DNA of 64,000 nt from Tubiluchus corallicola (lineage: Eukaryota > Priapulida > Priapulimorpha > Priapulimorphida > Tubiluchidae): NCBI GenBank assembly GCA_030141605.1, contig JAQGDQ010000416.1:124001-188000 (forward strand), given 5' to 3'. This document shows, piece after piece, positions 7,844 through 63,319 of the stretch (the first letter of the stretch is position 1; each line of letters opens with the position of its first letter). Below the pieces are notes generated by a model. It saw only the letters and a program-made list of their open reading frames with translations, searched no databases and was not told where the DNA came from. The position numbers and the translations under genes were made by a program.

Positions 7844-8191
7844 TTAACTAAGATGGTAAACGTCGCATGAATGTCGGAAGTCATACTGTGTGTCAAAACT
7901 ACCTTCTAGCAAAATTGTTCTTTTACTTTTGTAACGCTCGAGAAATCGCACTATTGCAATAAGTTTGGCTTCAGATCTAGAACGAAAACATAATTTCGAT
8001 GGTGTTAGGCTTTGTTTAAGGAAGTAGTGATTTACAGCTAGTGGGGATATTTCTAACTTAGTTTTAAGATAACGCAAGAGGTAATTTGAACCTAGGTTAG
8101 AAATACGCCGGTAATTTAAAACTGGGTTTGAATGACCAAGTTGGGATCGTGGTGTAATGAATAAGGGATATATTAACTGGTACACCTGCAT
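7844..8191 (-). other. Unassigned 115-codon ORF, doubtful gene
   Basis: A 115-codon ORF, rich in Leu, Arg, Ser and Tyr, with no motif I recognise. It has no splice-bounded extension that I could find and no obvious poly(A) signal. Among AT-rich noncoding DNA a frame of this length may be chance or part of a decayed mobile element. It is listed only because it is one of the longest unexplained frames in the left third. Confidence 0.15.
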
Positions 8192-8795
8192 TATCTTTTT
8201 TTCTCGAAATTCATTTTTTATTTAGTATGGCAGTCTAAAAAATACATGCAGAATAAGAGAAATTAATATAACGAATATTAAATTCAATGTTTTAAATATA
8301 AATCAGCATTTTAAATAATGGGCACATTTAATTGACAGTGCTTGTGGCAGCATTATCCGTTTTACAGCGCGACTAAGAAAATAAGACATTTCTGCCGATG
8401 GCTCATAGTAATAATGATAGATCATGACCAGTGGTCAACCCCACCGTTGTGCTTTACTTTATAAATTACAATTGTCTAATTTATCCTTGTATTTTTAATT
8501 TCTCTTTTTCCTTCTTTTTTGTTTCATATTTAATAGCTAAATCCCTACCGTAAACGTACATGTGACAGCTGTAAGCTACTAACATAAACGTCTGGTTATA
8601 ATCTTATATAATCTTACACCTTTCTTTCAATTTTTTGCAGAGACAAAAAATACCCGAGTGGAAAATGACCAGCAACTGCGCGCAACCAATACTATGAAAA
8701 AGCCACAGGAAGATCTGTTTTCCTAAATATAAGTGTAAATCGCGTAACAACGTTGTGTACAATTTGCAATAAAGAACTAACACAGTAATAAAACA

Positions 8796-10860
8796 ATGAA
8801 AGCTGAAGCTAAGGCGCCCATTGCGCATGCTCATCCTGCTGAACCTAGGCACAGTTTCACCATCCACTACACCGGTGAGAGAGCTATGGATCTTTCTCCC
8901 ATCTGGAGGAGAAGAGCGAAGGGTGGAGACAGATGTGTCGTACCCGTACATGGGAATGAATTCTTGCTAGCCAGTAGAACGAGAAAGGCGGTTTATAAAC
9001 AGTCATATGAAAAAAAACTTCCGAGATTGCAATCTGCATTGCAGAATATCAACACCAAGTAAGCCATATAATTTTTATTTACATATTACCTCGTAGCCTT
9101 GTTGCTTTCCCTCTTTAGTACATATAATTTTCACTGTCGAGTTTAAAACAGGCTGCTAATATACCCAGGGCCTATTTCAGCCTAGGCGAGGCCCGGGGAA
9201 GTGGGGCATATGAGGCCCCATCAGGGGGGGGGGCGAAGCGCCGGGTATCGGGCACTACCATGTTTGGCGCCCAGAAAATTTTTGAACTGCTAGAACGTTG
9301 GAGAAGCATTTTCGAAGAGAAATTATGGAGTTATACAGTTGTTAAAGGAAAGAACAATTGAAAGAAAAAACTGCTTTATTCTCAAGACCAGTCCTTAATA
9401 CTTGTCAATACTGGCAAACGACGCGCGTGCGGCAAGAGAAAGAGGAGGCAGTATGTTCGCATAAAGCAAAAAAATGATACCTTGGCGCGAGGCCCCCTGG
9501 AGGGTGAGGCCCCGCGGGGAAGTATCCCCACTCCCCCCCCTTGAAATAGGCCCTGAATATACCACATGCCTGCACTAACAAAAGTGAAGGTAAATGTGGT
9601 CAATATGAAAAGTCTGATGATGAAGTGGTAACTATCAGCCCCTTCACCCCAAGCAGTGATTGATTCATTGACTTGCTTAATTTACTTTAATGGACAAGTA
9701 CTTCGCTTGTCATTTTGCTTGGTACGTAGTTGCAGGATGTTATATAAATTTACAACAGTGTTGAAAATTCTTACTGTAGGTATTTACAAATGCTGGAGGT
9801 TGGTGATAAAAAGCGGCTATGCGAAGGAGCTCTGAATTTATCTAAAGGTAGGTCTTCACTTTTTGCAATTTTTCATGTGCACATATTATCTAACAAGCAT
9901 TTCACGCGTCTAACATAATACTAACATTTACATTTAATTACTGTTTTACAAGTTTATATTTCGTGTTTTATAAAAAATCTTACAAAATGTTACCGATAAG
10001 CTGTTTTTTAAATGAATAAATGAGCTTCATTCATTACATCATTCCATTTTAAGCACTAATGTTTTTTTTTTATCACGATTCACTTCAAATTTTCAGATTA
10101 TCTCCATTACTTTTTTTTTCTATCACTGTGTGGGACAATCTAACAAGCCCTGCTTTTTGATTGCCCGCAACACATTTACCTTCGTGTATAAGTGAACAGT
10201 GTTTGAGGCTTTTCCTGTGCAGTATTTCTTATTTGTATTATATCCATTGTAGGCCCTTTCACTAGATGTGTAAGGTGAAATAAATGACTTATGACTTATC
10301 CCAGTCATAATTACATCTAAATCTGGCTAAATGATTGCGGATCAGATAAGCTAGAACTGATGTTGTTTTGAAGAATTTATAGTGTCTCATATATTTCAAA
10401 ACAGAATCCAAATAAAAAATATGTTTGTTAGAAAATTTAATGGAGGCAAATTCAGCAATATACCGTTACTGACACAGCCCGAGGTCATTCGGAAATTTTT
10501 GTTGCCAACAATACCACTATATTGAAAATGAAATTCATGTACACAAAGCAATTTAGCTGGCTGCACATGGGTACTGTACATACTACTCAAGACATGACAA
10601 CATTGGATTGTTAATACTGTTGTAATAATGCTTCTTGTGATTTAGATCCAAGAGAGTGGGACAGAGCAGAAGTGGTCCTCTGGCTGAAAGCCATGTCACT
10701 AGTCCACGGAATCGACGTCCTTCTTGACAGATTTCAAATGAACGGGAAAGCCTTGTGTCTTATGAACATGGACATGTTTGTAGTGCGGGTACCTCTTGGA
10801 GGTAAACTCCTCTTCAAGGACTTTCAACTGCGACTTCACAAGGCACTGCACAACGTATGA
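8796..10860 (+). CDS. Stand-alone PNT (pointed/SAM) domain protein, ETS-modulator-like
   Basis: Three exons join in phase: 8796-9058, 9780-9847 and 10646-10860, giving 181 aa. Junctions are CACCAA/GTAAGC, TACTGTAG/G, TCTAAAG/GTAGGT and GATTTAG/ATCC. An in-frame TAA at 8778 makes the ATG at 8796 the first possible start. Residues about 110-178 form a clear PNT domain: DPREWDRAEVVLWLKAM, then FQMNGKALCLMNMDMF, then RVPLGGKLLFKDF. The FxMNGKAL block resembles the TEL/ETV6 type. The PNT exon runs straight into a TGA, with AATAAA at 11128, so no ETS DNA-binding domain follows. The N-terminal 110 residues are basic (IWRRRAK, KKLPRL) and unknown to me. PNT-only proteins such as Drosophila Mae/EDL (about 177 aa) bind PNT domains of ETS factors and control ERK signalling; a like role here is inference. 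An alternatively spliced ETS gene is the main alternative. Confidence 0.75.
9166..9555. mobile_element. hAT-type non-autonomous element, 390 bp
   Basis: Ends are CAGGGCCTATTTCA and its exact inverse TGAAATAGGCCCTG. They are flanked on both sides by the same 8-mer AATATACC (9158-9165 and 9556-9563), a perfect 8-bp target duplication as made by hAT transposases. The inside is GC-rich with G and C runs (GAGGCCCGGGGAAG) that also form inverted repeats. It lies in the first intron of the PNT gene, about 100 bp after the donor. There is no transposase. Confidence 0.9.
10245..10300 (+). repeat. Probable LINE/SINE 3' tail fragment
   Basis: TAGGCCCTTTCACTAGATGT is followed by GTAAGGTGAAATAAATGACTT and a short TTATGACTTAT repeat. 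This resembles the end of a non-LTR element, with a hairpin-like block, then AAATAAA and a short tandem tail. It lies in the second intron of the PNT gene. Confidence 0.3.
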
Positions 10861-11127: not shown

Positions 11128-11133
11128 AATAAA
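11128..11133 (+). terminator. Poly(A) signal of the PNT gene
   Basis: AATAAA 268 bases after the TGA stop at 10858-10860. It supports the PNT exon being the terminal coding exon. Confidence 0.55.
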
Positions 11134-13098
11134 TCTTTTTAATTAAATTAATGGAATGTTACCTCAGTTGTCACAAGTTTTAGTAAACAGCAAGGCTGGT
11201 GTATTTTTATTCTATAGGTTTGATTGTAATAATGCCAAAGAGAAATGAAGCCAAAGAAAGTTTAATCCTTGTGAACTACAAAAAATATGTAAAAACTTTG
11301 GATAATCTGCAACCTATGTTACTTTTTTGTATTTTATCACCGTGAGTCTAATATATTTGTCAATTCTATAGTTCTGTCAGTGTTGCTGATACTGCTAGTA
11401 TGTACTTATTATTAAAACTCATTGTCCTCGTGCAAAACTCAGTAGTAGTGTCTGTGGTGCTATCAATTCCTCTCTTTTATATTTAAAACTGTAATTATAT
11501 GTAAATAGTAATAAATAAAATTTTAAAGAAAAACAATGAATTAAACTAATTAAATAGACGTTTAAACAAACATACTCATTTAATGGCATACACATGTCAA
11601 GCAGAACCGAACAGTACCACATAATGAGAATGACCTTAAATAACATACTACAACCAATAAACGTACTATAACAGTACACAGTAACACTAATAATCACAAC
11701 ACAGAATGACCTAGTTGACTGGCAGTATTCCATTACTATGATATAAAATCAACAACATATTTAATAGCAGGCTAACAAATTGAAACAATGACAATACGAA
11801 ACTGATTTGAGATATGCTCAAACATTTGTACATTTACTCTAAATCTTTAATGGGGTAAACTGGCATTCAAATACAAAGCACTTAACTTTGACAATTCAAA
11901 ACGAATCATTTTCCATGATGTTACGATGCAAGTTGTACAACTTTACTACTGAAGGACAGGGTCACAAAGTTCATTCACTGGCATGGTACTTTTACAGACA
12001 CAACAAATAATGCCGTATTTCAAAAAAAAGTTGAAAATGATTTTAATTCAATGTGACTGTTATTAGCAGTTGAATTTGATTTTCTGAAAAAAGTCGCAAT
12101 TTTAAGGTCACAGAATTCATACCCGAAGGTAAGTCACAACCATTAATTACGGTCAGTGTTAGATAATTTCATTCAGTAAATGAGAGGAAAAGCAAACATT
12201 GCTTGCCTAATTTTGGAAAACAATCATAATTTGTCAAAGAGGTAATAAGTAAACAGCCAAAAATTCCAATCAAAATTTTTAAAATTCTCAAAAAATATGA
12301 AAGAGAGGGATCATGAAACTCTTGCAGGTCCAAAATGAAATGTAGTTGAATGACAGTTTGTGCTGAAGACTATGAACACGAATGCACATGTTTAACACAA
12401 AGTTACTAAATACTTTGTTGTATCATTTTTGACAATTGATATTACATTTGACAAAAATTAGTATTAATGACAATGAAAAGTATTACATTAAGCATTATCA
12501 GAGACATTTAATAATGAAGAAGTAGTTGGTGAATTAAGATTGAATTAAGAAGTAAATGATCACAAACTCTCCATTTTCTCATTTTAATTTCATATTTCAA
12601 GCTTAAGTTCCTATTGATATTCTAATAGTGGATTAACTCCATCACATGACGTTTTCCAGCTTGAGTTCAACAAAATGACTCAATTATATCTGTATTTAAA
12701 CATTTCAGAAGAGCTTTGATGCAAGTGAAAATCATTTTATTCTGATTAAGGATAAAACAATTTCATTTCAAAAATTTTGCAAACACCCTTAGACAAAATC
12801 TGACATAGTTTAAAAACTAGCCTCTTATTTGCTATACCAGTCACAGAAAAGATATAGATATCAAAGCAAAACAAACACCAGTGATTTTTCATAGTTATAA
12901 TTCACCAATGTTCAAATCACTCCTACATTCTGCAAAGTATATCTAATTTATTTACATAAAAATTTTATCTTAAAATGGCAAAATTTCACAAAACACATGA
13001 ACACCATTAAATAGCCAGTGACTATTAGTTATGATACATAGTCGTCATATTATATAATAATTAATGTACTGACTAGATCAGGATTCATTAATGCACAT
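11134..13098. other. Convergent 3' flank between the PNT gene and TBCD
   Basis: This AT-rich interval separates two genes that run toward each other. TTTATT (AATAAA on the minus strand) at 12947-12952 is a possible poly(A) signal for TBCD, about 150 bases past its stop. The 104-codon minus-strand frame at 11419-11733 is hydrophobic low-complexity sequence without family similarity and is not called. Nothing else can be supported. Confidence 0.4.
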
Positions 13099-34300
<21,202 letters not shown>

Positions 34301-49500: not shown

Positions 49501-52500
49501 AAGCTATTTATGCAATTTATGACTAAAGTCATAAATAAAGTGCCCTGGCCATGCACTACTAATGAATGGAAATTTAGCATTACAAATTTAATTTATGAAA
49601 AGCATGCTTTAGAGTAACTTACCTGATGAGATTTTTTCAAAAAGTTGTTGTCAAGAGCAACGGAATGAATGCTTGCAGATGAAGTTTGCTTTGCTACTGA
49701 ACTACGGCTGCTTGAGTGTCGCTCTTTTCTCTGAGCAGACTCCATTAAAAAATTTTCCTGTTGCTGAATTTCCTTTTGTAATCTTTCTTGCTCCTGCTGT
49801 TGTCTTTGCAAAAGCAGTGACAGCTGACTTTGTTGCTGCTCCATAAGCTGCTTCCTGAGCTGTTCGAAATGCTTTGCCTGTTTTTCTAGAAGTACTAATG
49901 GTAAATTTTCATAGCTTGCAGTACCAGTAAATGATTCATCAGGTGTTGAACCAAAAACAAAAACATCCCGAGATGGAGATGCAACACTTAAGGCCTGCTG
50001 TGTACTTGCTTTTTTATGTTTCTCAGATTTACTGTTTTCAGCGACACTCTTCCAAGTGACAAAATTGTCATTTTGACCAAGCTTTGACTGCATGGGCATT
50101 TGCGAATACACGGGTAAACCAGGGAATGCAGTGAGCGAATTATTATTGAAATTATCATTTGCAGACACTTCATTAAGAAATCTTTTTAAATGGTCCTGTT
50201 TGCCTTTCTCTTCTGCATAGTCATTACAGAACAATGACTTCAAAGGACTCTGTTGTTTGCTTTTTGATAAAGACGGTGATCTTACATCGATTTGTTTGGT
50301 TGCATGGTTTTTATCATTATTTCGACGATGAGCCTCTAACAAGCCAGGCGAAGGACTGTCCAAAGTGTAAGAACCCAGTCGTGGTCGTCTTTCAACAGAA
50401 TGCAGTTGATCATGATTATCACTAGACACATCACTTTTGTTACCCAGTGCTGACTTTACAGAAAAAATAACTTCCGCTTTTTTCACTGAACTTTGATCGT
50501 TATAATTGGATGCCTGTACCTCTTCAGCATTTGCAACATGTTGTGTTACAGTAGGTGTACTTGTAACAGTGTCAAAAGAACTGTTGACATACTGGCGTAG
50601 ATCAGTACTGGAGCTTCGCATTAAGGTTGAGGGTGTTTCAAGAGAATTTTGGGGTTCATCCGATAGCAACTGTTGTGGATGATGCTGCATAGCTGAACAC
50701 GGTAAAGATGAATTTGCATCCGAATCAATATACTTCACATCTTCACTGGTGTTTGCATTCAAGGCATCCTCACTTTTGTGACCCATGTCAAACTCAGACT
50801 TGCCAACACTATTTGCTGATATAAATGAGTTAAGATAGTTGTCACATCTATTGTTGGCCTCACACTTGTTGTCAGGAGGCTCTGGTGTTGGAAAAGGTAA
50901 AGTAGGGGCATTGTTGCTGGGCTCACTCATGTCAAGTTTAATGCTATTTAGCTTTTCTCTACTTGGTGTATCACTAGGTAATGGGAAATGCATATCAATA
51001 TACTCCACAGATGTCACCACACGTTCACTCTTATCAATTGGATAAGTATCTAAAGCTTTAGTATCACTAGGTAATGGGAAATGCTTATCAACATACTCCA
51101 CAGATGTCACCACACGTTCACTCTTATCAATTGGAAAAGTATCTAAAGCTTTAGTATCACTAGGTAATGGGAAATGCTTATCAATATACTCCAAAGATGT
51201 CACCACACGTTTACTCTTATCAACTGGAAAAGTATCTAAAGCTTTAGTAAGAGAATAAGTAAGTGAAAAACTTGTCTCAGTGAAACAGTGGTCACTGTTA
51301 GTAGCATGATTATTTTGACACGAGTCATCATCATATTGACGCAATTCTAACCCAGTTTCGTTTGGAGATTGTTGTATTTTCTCGTGTGAAAGTACTTCAG
51401 CATTAGCAACATCTTTGATTGTACTGACTGAAGATGCCGAAAGGGACGTCCGACTAAAGTTAACGTCATGGTTACTAGCTTCACACAAATCGCTTTTTGA
51501 TTGCGTATCACTCCTAGGAGAATTAGTTGGTGTTTTTCTTTCCTGAAACAATTTATTTTTGAAATGTGAACATCTATTTAACAATCTTACCAAAGTCAGT
51601 CAAATGTCTTGTGTGAGACTCATAGCTCACGTGTTCTGGCCTTCAGCATGTAATAACTGAATGACTGCTGTTAATATAGGAGTGCAGTTAGTTAAATTGC
51701 ACCGGTGGCTGTTTATATGAGAATACAAATGATTACAATTTCTTAACTGCCACTGAATCTTAATAATCTGGTAACCAGGTATCCAACAAGTATAAGGAAA
51801 AGGCTACCCGAATCTGATTTTTGCTACACGTGTAAACATTAATCCTTTGAGATTTCAAAAGACAAAACTGAATGAACTTTTTCACAAAAACAAACAGGAG
51901 CAGGCCACCAGCACTACATAAAAATGCCAGTAAAATAATATACGTAAATGATAATAATAATAATGTGGCCACAAATTTCTATGAAATGAAAATACTTTAA
52001 GCTTTAACTGATCATCAAAATTAAGCTCTATAGTAACTACAGTAACTGACAATTGACAGGCATGCAAAATAAATCAGGGACATAAAATTTTCTGCTTTTC
52101 TCTTAACATAAAGGCAGTGCTCTAACACAGTTAGTAAACAACAAAATACGAACTGAATTCTACCCAGTATTTAACATTTTACTTGGGAATATTAAACTTA
52201 TATCAAAAATTAAAACTGAATTAAACTCAGCAATTGCAATACATGGATACAATTAGAAAGTAATGAATGCTGCAGCTGCTATATTTCGAGTGGCACTTTT
52301 ACTTTATAGAAAATACCTCAATTCTGTTTAATACAGCTTGAACTTTTGCGATAAGAGCCCTAGATCGCCTTGCATTTTTTCTTGCTTCTATAACGCACGC
52401 TTGCTGTCTGTACGAATAAATGTCCTGTCGTTTACTGGCTGTTATCTGAAAAGACACAAGTAACTTGCAAATCATCGATGCACCATGTCATGGCAGCCCT

Positions 52501-58075: not shown

Positions 58076-58391
58076 AACGAGAAACTTGTAACTAAGACCC
58101 AGTAAGAGATTGCTCATAGCAATGTATCATGGATGAAAGTAGTACACCTGCTCATCTATAACACCCGAACATAATCAGTAATATTATTAACTGGTGTGCA
58201 GCGAATGTCAACTGTTATGCTTGGAAATGTCTAAGTTTATGAAGAATTCCTGTCATCATACAAATTGTTTTTCTATAATTCTTATCTCGTGTTAATCCTA
58301 ATGTTGTCTTCTTTTGCTTTGGGATACACAGTTCTTCTAGATGGATTGGAAGTCTGGTACCTTGCTTTAGACCAGCATAAACTGAAGTGAA

Positions 58392-61300
58392 ATGAATGCA
58401 GTGATTGCCTTGACTCACTTTTGTGAGCTTCACGGTCCTAGTATTGTATTCTGCACACAAGCATTTCATGCACAGGATCCTATTGATATACTTGATGCCA
58501 GCACATCTCAGCCTGATTTTAATGTTAGTCAACGAAACATTGATGGTGAGTGCCGGTTTTCACAAACTCTTTTAATTACTGTGTTGTGATTAAAAACTTC
58601 TGATAATTACCGAATTAGTAATGATCTGATAATTACTGATAATTTTAGGTTTTGCTGAACTTAACACATTTTTAAGTGATAACTGGAGTCTGAAGATATG
58701 GATCTTTTTTATCTTAACTTCTGCTCACATAATGTATTTTCATCTGACACTTGAAATTTCAGTTTATGTATACTTGCCAACTTTTGAAAGAAAAATTCGG
58801 GAGATGTTAGTAAAATAGCAGTTGGACAACTATAAGATGGAATTGTTATATTGTAGAGACTGTTAGCCAACACTCAGGAGATATAATTTTCTATGGCAGT
58901 ATCGAACCATGGCTCCGTTCAAAGTCTTCAAGCTCAGTTCCTTCAACACCAGGATCAGGACATTTGGGTGTTGGACTTTCAACTGCTGGGGGAAATGTTT
59001 CTGAAATGTGTGAGGTAAACGCCAAAGTTTGTGATGTATTTTCTTGATATATTAATAACAGCTCTGTAGTTGACTCGTTTCATTTTTTTGCTTATTGTCT
59101 CTAATATTTTACTATTATTTAGGCTTGTAAGTCTATGCCAGCTGGACAACCTGGATTTATTAGCAATGATCATGAAGCGAAAATAAGTTACATTAGCAGT
59201 CAATACCCTTGTCATCCTGAGATATTTAGCATTGTTCGACAAGCATGTGTAAGGAGCTTAAGTTGCGAGGTAAGAAAATATTAGAGTTTAATTGTTAACT
59301 AAGTATTTAAGTAGTGTTTGCCTGAAAAAATAGTGCTATAATAAATTTGTGCTTTACTAGTTACAAAATCATTTACAGCTTACCTTAATTCATCTTACAG
59401 GTTTGTCCTGGCAGAGAAGGTCCAATATTTTTTGGCGACGACCAACGTGGGCATGTATTAAGCCATACGTTCTTTGTGAAGGATAGTCATGCTCGCGGGT
59501 TTCAGCGTTGGTATAGCATACTCGTTGTAATGATGGATAAAATATTTTTGCTCAACTCTTGGCCATTCCTTGTCAAGCACATTAGGTCAGATATTACTTA
59601 CTAAAGCAGCTTTTCTCTTTTAGAATTGATAGATTTGTAAAGCACAGCTCAGCGATAAATTACAGTAACTGAGTGACTTGATTATTTATTACTTCTACAA
59701 TATTTGCTTTTGTAGAATTTTCAATTTTGAAGATGATTCTGTTCAACAATTGTTAACATATTCATCTGACTGTATATTATGGGCCTAATTATAAAAATCA
59801 GTAATTTCAATCACTCACACTTAACTGTACATGAATACATTTCAGATATTTGTTATTACTTAACAGTGCTGAAAACCTTTTCTTTAAATTTCTAGAATCA
59901 TTATCGACATCATACAAGAAAAGGCACTGAAAGTTTATGAAATGGAGCAGACAGAATGTCCTCAGAGGTCATTGAGGTTAGGCAGCGGAACAAACCCACG
60001 AGATTTTCTTCGGCATCGAGGGATGAACAAACCTGCTAGGTCTTTGGTAAATATTAAATTTGTCAGTAGTAAATTTAGTAGCCATTGTTATATATATTTA
60101 ACATTTCTGAAAATTGCTCAAAATCTACAAAATGTCACATAGGTTTCTGGTTTTCCTTATTTCTACAAGGACACATCAACTCACAGAGGTTTAAAGGGAA
60201 GCTGGCACTTGGTTTGTGAATGTTTATTGGTACTTGTCACTGTACGGAGACAGGCTTTTTTTGCTAAATTTAAATTATGCTAATTTGCAGAGAGCTAAAT
60301 TTACTCAGAGTAAAAACATTTAAACTCTCATTTAACTAAGTTTCTTCCCACTGGTTGCCTTTATTTCCAGAATAAATACAAATGTACACTTACTTGCCAG
60401 TTTCTAATGCAACAAAAGAATGGGTATTGTTGATAACAACATTGTAACCTCTTAACTCCATCAGGACCACACCATTCAAAATAGGTCTTATAAAACCTGT
60501 GACTTTTCTGCTACTGTATGAGCACAGAGATAACTAAATGATTACAAATTAGGTACTGTTCTATTCAGGAGAATCTCGATTATCCAACCATGGATAAGAG
60601 ATTATATTATAAGAGATTTAATTAGATAAAATTAAGAAAAATACGCCCTTTTCAGACACTCCAACTTAGCCTATTGAGTAGCTTAGTCTGGTATACACTT
60701 GTGTGATTGTACACACTACTTTATTACATATTACTTTATTAGAAACCTACAAAAATTATCGAACATGACCCAATCGCAGCTTACTGAGAGCAGTTTTTCA
60801 TGAACCCATGTAAAATGCAGCAAACACTTACGGTCCTGAAGGAGTTAAGTGCTAATGTTTCGTTGCACCATCAGCATCATCATGACAGTGTGCAGTGAAA
60901 CCTAAATATTAAAAGTGTACCGTGTACCGTGTTGTTATCAACAATAGCATTACTTTTGTGCATTACAAATACTCGGGTTCCCCAAGCATAAACCAGTTTC
61001 TTATTATTTGTTAAGTAATAATACTTTCAACAGACTTTGGCATGATAAAAATGAAGATGACTTATTAGTGTTTAATTTGAGCTAACATCAGTTCACTTTA
61101 TTTACTTGTTTTATAAACCATACAATAAGACACTTTTTTAATTCTTATCCTTGGGTTCAACGTTTAGTCTATAAGGCATTACCTTCGCTCTTTTGTATTT
61201 TATTAATGTGTTGTTTAGGTAGAGCTAACTCAGGAAAAAGACTTATTCCAGAGATTTCATTTTTGGTTCACCTGGCTTCTGAAAGCTGGAGGAACTCGCA

Positions 61301-63319
61301 TGTCCGAGAGACTTCTTGAAGGACCACCAACGGAGGACACTGTCATTGACATGGAAAGACAGGAAGGTTAGAGGCCATCTGCTCTAATAACTGGTGCATT
61401 ACAATTTACTTACAAGTGCATTGTAAAAAATAGCTGTTAGCATTTATTATGATTATTATAAATATTTTATTAGTTCCATCAATTCAGTTATAAGCACTAG
61501 TTTCAAAATAGTAAGACATAATGAATCTGTTAACAAGATTCTGTAACTTGCATTGATTTCCTGTTTTAAATGCTAATTTATTATTTGTGATAATATTTAT
61601 CAAGAAACTGCATTTCTAAAAGGAGATATTTTTCTTTCTTCACATCACAGAAACTGAGGAAGGATTTGTGAAACTTTTTACTAAAAACCTGGAAGTGACT
61701 AAGAAATCAGATGCTTCCTGTGATAATACTTTAGAATCTCAAATCAACGCTTCACTGGCTTCACAGGAAAAGGATTCATCTTCCAGTGGGCCAACATTCA
61801 AAAATTTGAGGCATTTGCTAAGGGTAACTAAAGTACAATTAAAAGGATATTTTAGAAATTTGAAGTTTTAATTGTTGCAATTGCATTTTTCTCTTTGTCT
61901 AATTTTGTTTTTGCAGTCATCACGGTATGTGCGTTAGCTATCTGACATATTTTACTTACTTTTTAATGTATTAAAACTGAAATTTTTTTCACTAGGATCG
62001 AAACTTTTGAAAGCTGACAAATTAGTAGTGCATCCTTTCATCTTTTTGATGTCATTCAATTAACTAGTTTATAATATTTGTGCGCTTAACCCTGTGATAG
62101 GTTTAACTTGAAAGATTAATTAAAATTTCTAGAAAAACAAATTTTTTTTATTAAGTTTTAAGTATACAGTTATCTGAGTAATGTAGAATTTCAGTGTGGC
62201 AAGAATTTGATATTAGTGTTAAAGACAGGTAAAGTTAACACACAAAAAAATTCAACTCTCTTAATTGATATTTAACAACAAAATATTGATATGACATGTT
62301 ATGTTAGATTCTTCTTATGTTTGTAGGTATTGGAGTATGAGAAGTTTCATTTGTTATGCCATCATGCAATAATAGGCAATCAAGTTATTGTGCGAGGCTG
62401 TAATCCTCGGCTTGTTGCATCTGTGATCCAGGCTTTAGAAGTATGGAAAAATTTTCTTAAAACTAAAACATCTCTTAAAGAAACTTCAATTCATCAGTGA
62501 ATTTGATAAAAATGTTGAAATATTTTTCAATGTCCTTTTTTGAAAATGCTGTCTTTGTTTCTCTTGGTGCGCAAGTGTAAATATAGCAGTTTTTACTTGG
62601 TTTTTCTAAGTCGAAAACAAAATGAGGTGGTTGGGCTTAAGCAGAAGGAAATGCTATTTTAAAGTATGTCCCAAAAAATTTCCCCCACAAAGTTATATTA
62701 ATTAGCATTATCCTTACTTGCTTGAAAGACTTATGTAAATAGAAAAAAAATTCTTACTTAAAATATTTGTTCCTCCTGGTAAAATGGCACTGCATCGGCT
62801 TCCTAGCGTGCACCACCAAAAAACACATTATTGTCGTTATTGACAACATAAAGTAATTTAAACTTTTGCTTAGTTAGTGAAAAGTGTGCTACGAATGCAC
62901 TGGTTATTCAGACTTTATGCAGTGATTTCTAACTTATTACTAAATGACTTAACGATGCTTAAGGTCATCGCAGGAGTTGAAATTTATAAGTTTTATACAG
63001 TATTACACTAACGCAAGCTCTGTATGCAATAAGGTTGCATGTATGTTAAATAAAATTTCAAGGTGAATTTTTTCGACAGCATGTAAGCAGACAAATTAAC
63101 TGAATTTTAATATTTTTACAAGAAATAATTTGAAATTGGAGTTTAGCAATAGCAAAATAGTTGCATAATTAGAAAGATTAATTATACAAAACATGTCAAA
63201 ACTAAATACTGAGATGGTGTAAATAATTTCGTTTTTACAGAGCTTGTTACCAAAAGGTTGTTGCAGAAAGATTGTTTGGAGTTCTGTTTATGAGGATTCT
63301 TGGAAGTGCAATTTCCTTG
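58392..63319 (+). CDS. FLCN: Folliculin, first nine exons (3' part beyond window)
   Basis: Folliculin pairs with FNIP, acts at the lysosome as a GAP for RagC/D and so sets TFEB/TFE3 and mTORC1 signalling. Exons: 58392-58545, 58857-59014, 59123-59269, 59401-59585, 59896-60046, 61219-61366, 61651-61823, 62327-62440, 63241-63319; 1309 nt, about 436 aa, all in phase. The N-terminal longin part starts [20 protein letters not shown], almost as in human. Further landmarks are [34 protein letters not shown] and [13 protein letters not shown]. By my count the Arg in SHARGF is residue 185; from memory it aligns with the human GAP arginine (Arg164). The later exons ([25 protein letters not shown]) lead into the DENN-like half, whose remainder is outside the window. 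An acidic Ser-rich loop in exon 7 is poorly conserved, as in human. The exon 9 donor (CTTG/GTAAGT) is intact. Confidence 0.96.
60560..60680 (+). repeat. Possible pogo/Tigger-like terminal fragment
   Basis: CAGGAGAATCTCGATTATCC resembles the first 20 bases of pogo/Tigger elements. No matching inverted end could be found with confidence in FLCN intron 5. Confidence 0.25.

Follow-up and report, generated by a model that had tools for sequence, protein, structure and literature searches.

Drosophila Mae/EDL (CG15085; PDB 1sv0 chain C) is a stand-alone PNT protein of about 177 amino acids that lacks an ETS domain. Drosophila Mae is monomeric, as its end-helix (EH) face has an Asp in place of a key hydrophobic residue, which prevents polymerization, and it retains a mid-loop (ML) face through which it caps polymers of Yan (PMC3355116). 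PMC9499636 reports that the ML face of Mae masks the EH face of PntP2 and keeps MAPK from docking. In flies, Mae couples the repressor branch of transcription under ERK control to the activator branch. PMC6033539 states that Edl/Mae relatives occur in Tribolium, echinoderms and Ciona, by description the same kind of stand-alone regulator as the gene reported here, and that there is no clear vertebrate orthologue. The PNT domains of Yan and ETV6 (TEL1) belong to the same fold family and carry MNGKAL in the ML core, but they are parts of ETS-bearing, polymerizing proteins and have Val or Leu where Mae and the protein described here have Asp. The human TEL2/ETV7 isoform TEL2a likewise would be a PNT-only product, and a construct built to resemble it was shown in cell assays to block TEL1 and ETS1/2; unlike the product of the present gene, TEL2a is spliced from a gene for a complete ETS factor, and its SAM domain can polymerize (PMC3355116).

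A PNT-only gene of the Mae type is thus already known in kind beyond flies, and the locus analyzed here leaves that picture unchanged in kind. The literature that we found, in which subscription papers are thinly covered, showed no wider survey of Mae across phyla; PMC6226293 names Mae twice, in its reference list.

Gene structure

The window, by which we mean the whole 64-kb stretch of DNA that was analyzed, contains three exons that join in phase to 546 nt, corresponding to 181 codons and a TGA stop. Exons 1 and 2 are predicted exons.

8796-9058, plus strand: exon 1, coding, 263 nt; residues 1-87 and two bases of codon 88
9780-9847, plus strand: exon 2, coding, 68 nt; the rest of codon 88 to residue 110, and one base of codon 111
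10646-10860, plus strand: exon 3, coding, 215 nt; the rest of codon 111 to residue 181, then TGA
11128-11133, plus strand: first AATAAA polyadenylation signal 3' of the TGA, the next being at 11510

An earlier note on this DNA had claimed three in-phase exons encoding 181 residues, followed by a stop and AATAAA, and each of these elements was recovered, with GT/AG borders throughout and with both sequence motifs quoted in that note present in the translated frame. Exon 1 corresponds to the basic N-terminal region (pI 10.3), its start ATG lying in the context AAAACAATG, exon 2 to a linker reaching as far as the PNT core, and exon 3 to the core of the SAM_PNT domain. The two introns have the donors GTAAGC and GTAGGT and TAG acceptors, and the pyrimidine tracts preceding exons 2 and 3 are only moderate (0.55 and 0.60, respectively). 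No Pfam family matched the first 110 residues at or above its cut-off; below the cut-off were DUF5614 (E 0.03-0.09) and a CtpB_N-like match (E 0.13). The earlier note's idea that these residues may be new is a tentative one.

The G+C fraction is 0.47, 0.40 and 0.48 in exons 1, 2 and 3, as against 0.32-0.37 in the flanks and in those parts of the introns outside the transposon-like element, so that exons 1 and 3 stand well above their surroundings and exon 2 is barely higher. First-order simulations based on the dinucleotides of each exon gave probabilities of 0.008, 0.14 and 0.05 that exons 1, 2 and 3, respectively, would be free of in-frame stops. A codon-usage score, trained on other open reading frames of the window, mainly one unusual frame of 668 residues, was negative for exons 1 and 3 and slightly positive for exon 2; we regard this test as uninformative because the certain PNT exon also scored negative. 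Upstream of the start codon, at 8619-8640, a strong pyrimidine tract (0.85) ends in a CAG acceptor, marking a possible spliced non-coding 5' UTR exon from 8641.

The gene is known here from genomic DNA, the codon-usage test lends it no support, and the good acceptor ending at 8640 points to a possible non-coding exon upstream, all of which would be compatible with a Mae descendant that is now non-functional, or with mispredicted 5' exons (a pseudogene or a gene with different first exons). We consider this very unlikely in view of the three clean in-phase exons with intact start and stop, the G+C content of exons 1 and 3 well above that of the introns, and a full-length PNT domain whose ML core is unchanged.

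The PNT domain and its relationship to Mae

Residues 102-171 of the 181-residue protein match Pfam SAM_PNT with 43.6 bits (cut-off 24, E 3e-11), bearing out the C-terminal PNT domain that had been proposed from the sequence. A phmmer search of the PDB with the PNT domain returned Drosophila Mae (1sv0_C; 77 bits, 2.3e-20) as the best of the 45 distinct sequences listed, and no ETS factor took that place. The best other single PNT domain among the matches listed was that of Yan (30.7 bits); fusions containing three copies of ETV6 scored 63-65 bits and a two-copy fusion 44.5 bits, values that sum several domains. When Mae's own PNT domain was the query, no other single PNT domain of the PDB scored above 33 bits, and the window protein is therefore closer to Mae than is any other solved PNT domain listed. 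A single-sequence AlphaFold2 model of the PNT exon had a pLDDT of 57 and showed strands where an all-helix fold is expected, and was discarded as a failed prediction. Scans of viral contigs and of genome contigs, from prokaryotic and viral collections, with the alignment of the window protein and Mae gave 116 and 35 pattern matches, respectively; none was confirmed, and no relative was found.

An alignment and a phylogenetic tree were built from 11 PNT domains (window protein, Mae, Yan, ETV6, ETV7, SPDEF, ETS1, ETS2, GABPA, FLI1 and ERG), in which most comparison sequences, and the GABPA and ETV7 rows in particular, are provisional and Mae was represented by one sequence, its PNT part (1sv0_C). 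Identities with the window protein in this alignment are 38/73 (52%) for Mae, 25/71 for Yan, 23/69 for ETV6, 21/69 for ETV7 (provisional sequence), 20/71 for SPDEF, 20/72 for ETS1, 19/72 for ETS2, 18/70 for GABPA (also provisional), and 18/72 each for FLI1 and ERG. Nine residues (A, M, V, L, M, K, D, F and R) occur in the window protein and Mae and in none of the nine other domains. The clade uniting the window protein with Mae received a support of 100/100, and the AU test rejected all five constrained alternatives (p 2e-5 to 7e-4): four in which the window protein joins TEL/Yan, the TELs, Yan or ETS1/2, and one in which Mae joins TEL/Yan. The branch between this pair and the remaining domains is long (1.97); long-branch attraction is an unlikely cause of the grouping because the two sequences are 52% identical.

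The earlier note had proposed a Mae/EDL-like stand-alone PNT regulator, and the 77-bit match to Mae, the clade and the rejected alternatives, from a tree that includes TEL, Yan and Mae as that note had advised, all agree with the proposal. It had described the regulator as "independent or shared", and of these two options the shared one is supported and the independent one is not. A PNT-only protein of independent origin, left when some other ETS gene lost its ETS domain, would resemble Mae in plan and not by descent; such a plan could arise repeatedly, and the N-terminus is without a significant match. The nine Mae-only residues, the 52% identity, the 100/100 clade and the AU rejection of the alternatives, on the other hand, make this origin very unlikely.

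Direct membership of the TEL/Yan group was also considered and was rejected on the grounds that the tblastn search described below revealed no ETS domain in the window, that the clade with Mae has 100/100 support, and that placement of the window protein among TEL/Yan failed the AU test.

Search for an ETS domain

The TEL/Yan repressors carry a C-terminal ETS domain, and none was seen near the window gene or elsewhere in the 64-kb window in a tblastn search with provisional sequences of two human ETS domains (best E 0.19 with ETS1 and 3.6 with ETV6), a search run without a positive control and one that an intron-split domain could escape. This agrees with the earlier claim that no ETS domain follows the PNT domain. 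The next recognized gene downstream of the PNT gene is convergent with it and encodes tubulin-specific chaperone D.

14380-28357 and probably wider, minus strand: TBCD (tubulin-specific chaperone D) gene, with TFCD_C at 14380-14694 and ARM_TBCD_2nd at 26261-26539 above the Pfam cut-off and a match at 28121-28357 below it

A hidden downstream ETS exon is unlikely because the convergent TBCD gene comes next and no ETS domain was seen. These findings bear on the idea that the PNT exon is part of a full TEL/Yan-type ETS gene, with the stop codon ending a short isoform like human TEL2a. There is precedent for such an arrangement, TEL2a being a predicted SAM-only isoform of human TEL2 (PMC3355116), and the next-best relatives of the window PNT domain in the PDB search are Yan and TEL. 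With the tblastn search negative for the window, TBCD lying downstream on the opposite strand (TFCD_C match at 14380-14694), and trees that place the window protein among TEL/Yan rejected (AU p ~1e-4), however, we consider a full ETS gene highly improbable.

The second-best tblastn match of the PNT domain within the window lies at 642-719 on the minus strand (26 residues, 42% identical, E 0.03); the open reading frame around it (585-824) has no Pfam match, and the resemblance is probably due to chance.

Predicted mechanism

Two short segments of exon 3 bear on how the protein might act.

10738-10764, plus strand: codons of the ML face core MNGKALCLM, identical to Mae at 9 of 9 residues and placed by counting
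10819-10821, plus strand: codon of Asp 169, the end-helix Asp

Among the 11 PNT domains, Asp 169 is common to the window protein and Mae only; the same column holds Val in Yan, Leu in the two TELs and His in the other six ETS PNT domains, so that, by sequence, the hydrophobic EH face of the polymerizing TEL/Yan proteins is absent here. Asp 169 aligns with the sole Asp in the last-helix stretch of Mae (1sv0_C), and we take it to be equivalent to the published polymer-blocking Asp. Over the wider ML stretch FQMNGKALCLMNMDMFVVR, the identity to Mae is 13 of 19 residues by count. The last-helix Asp, MNGKALCLM, RVPxGGK and [KR]DF are common to Drosophila Mae/EDL and the window protein, in which one loop is three residues shorter than in Mae and a Lys occupies the Asp position of the GDV motif of the alignment.

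Taken together, the Asp in the EH face and the unchanged ML core predict a monomeric cap with one working face. Very probably the gene is a Mae/EDL orthologue whose product, small and basic, has a single PNT domain at its C-terminus, lacks a DNA-binding domain and is predicted to act as a monomeric PNT cap. The protein would be kept monomeric by the broken EH face, and its ML face would bind the EH faces of the animal's Yan/TEL-type and Pointed/ETS1-type PNT domains. Once bound, it would cap Yan/TEL polymers and hide the ERK docking surface of Pointed/ETS proteins, and the combined capping and hiding would damp both the repressor and the activator branches of ERK output. The closeness of the match to Mae suggests that the capping mechanism is conserved. 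Human TEL1 is only modestly weakened by fly Mae, and human TEL2SAM with a mutated EH or ML face still blocked ETS2 (PMC3355116), indicating that an ML/EH cap need not be the sole mode of action.

Other features of the window

The remaining features recognized in the window are as follows.

7875-7881: the heptamer CGGAAGT, which resembles an ETS site and lies 921 bp upstream of the ATG
9166-9555: transposon-like element of 390 bp in intron 1, bounded by 14-bp terminal inverted repeats CAGGGCCTATTTCA and flanked by a perfect 8-bp target duplication AATATACC
18263-19066: tandem repeat with a unit of 28 bp in about 29 copies (88% matches)
32400-33742, plus strand: LINE-like retroelement, with RVT_1 pieces in different frames (2.7e-14, above the cut-off, and 1.3e-5, below it)
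49596-51599, minus strand: open frame of 668 aa, Ser-rich and ending in a Gln-rich stretch, without a Pfam match
58386-61368, plus strand: folliculin gene; the open reading frame with the folliculin start matches human FLCN (2.8e-8), and 61219-61368 matches Pfam Folliculin at 0.0005, below the cut-off

By its form, the element in intron 1 is presumably a hAT-type miniature element, and no further copies of it were found within the window. The 668-residue frame contains three repeats of 31 residues (93-bp unit, 50968-51249). Of the many open reading frames present, 28 distinct ones were searched against Pfam (30 queries), yielding ARM_TBCD_2nd, TFCD_C and RVT_1 above the cut-off and a second RVT_1 match, a second TBCD match and folliculin below it; none of the remaining frames scanned had a match above the cut-off, and Rfam gave no match at the gathering score across the window.

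Fly mae is itself a target of Yan and Pnt (PMC3355116). CGGAAGT occurs six times in the window versus 2.3 expected, a count reached in 1 of 100 shuffles, whereas a looser ETS-site pattern is near chance (83 versus 70.6 expected; 12 of 100 shuffles), and because of the latter we make no claim of autoregulation.

Implications

What this gene adds to the known picture is that the putative polymer-blocking residue and the ML core travel together with the PNT-only plan. The presence of the monomerizing Asp and of the ML core in another probable Mae favours conservation of the mechanism, and the predicted protein offers a second natural cap for comparison with blockers of TEL/ETS PNT domains. More tentatively, and with somewhat less than even confidence, we propose that the animal lies outside the arthropods and that the capping device itself, the EH-breaking Asp with an intact ML core, and not just the PNT-only plan, came from an early animal ancestor, the basic N-terminus being lineage-specific. 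If this is true, Mae would have belonged to the ERK-ETS switch from the outset, and vertebrates would have lost it later.
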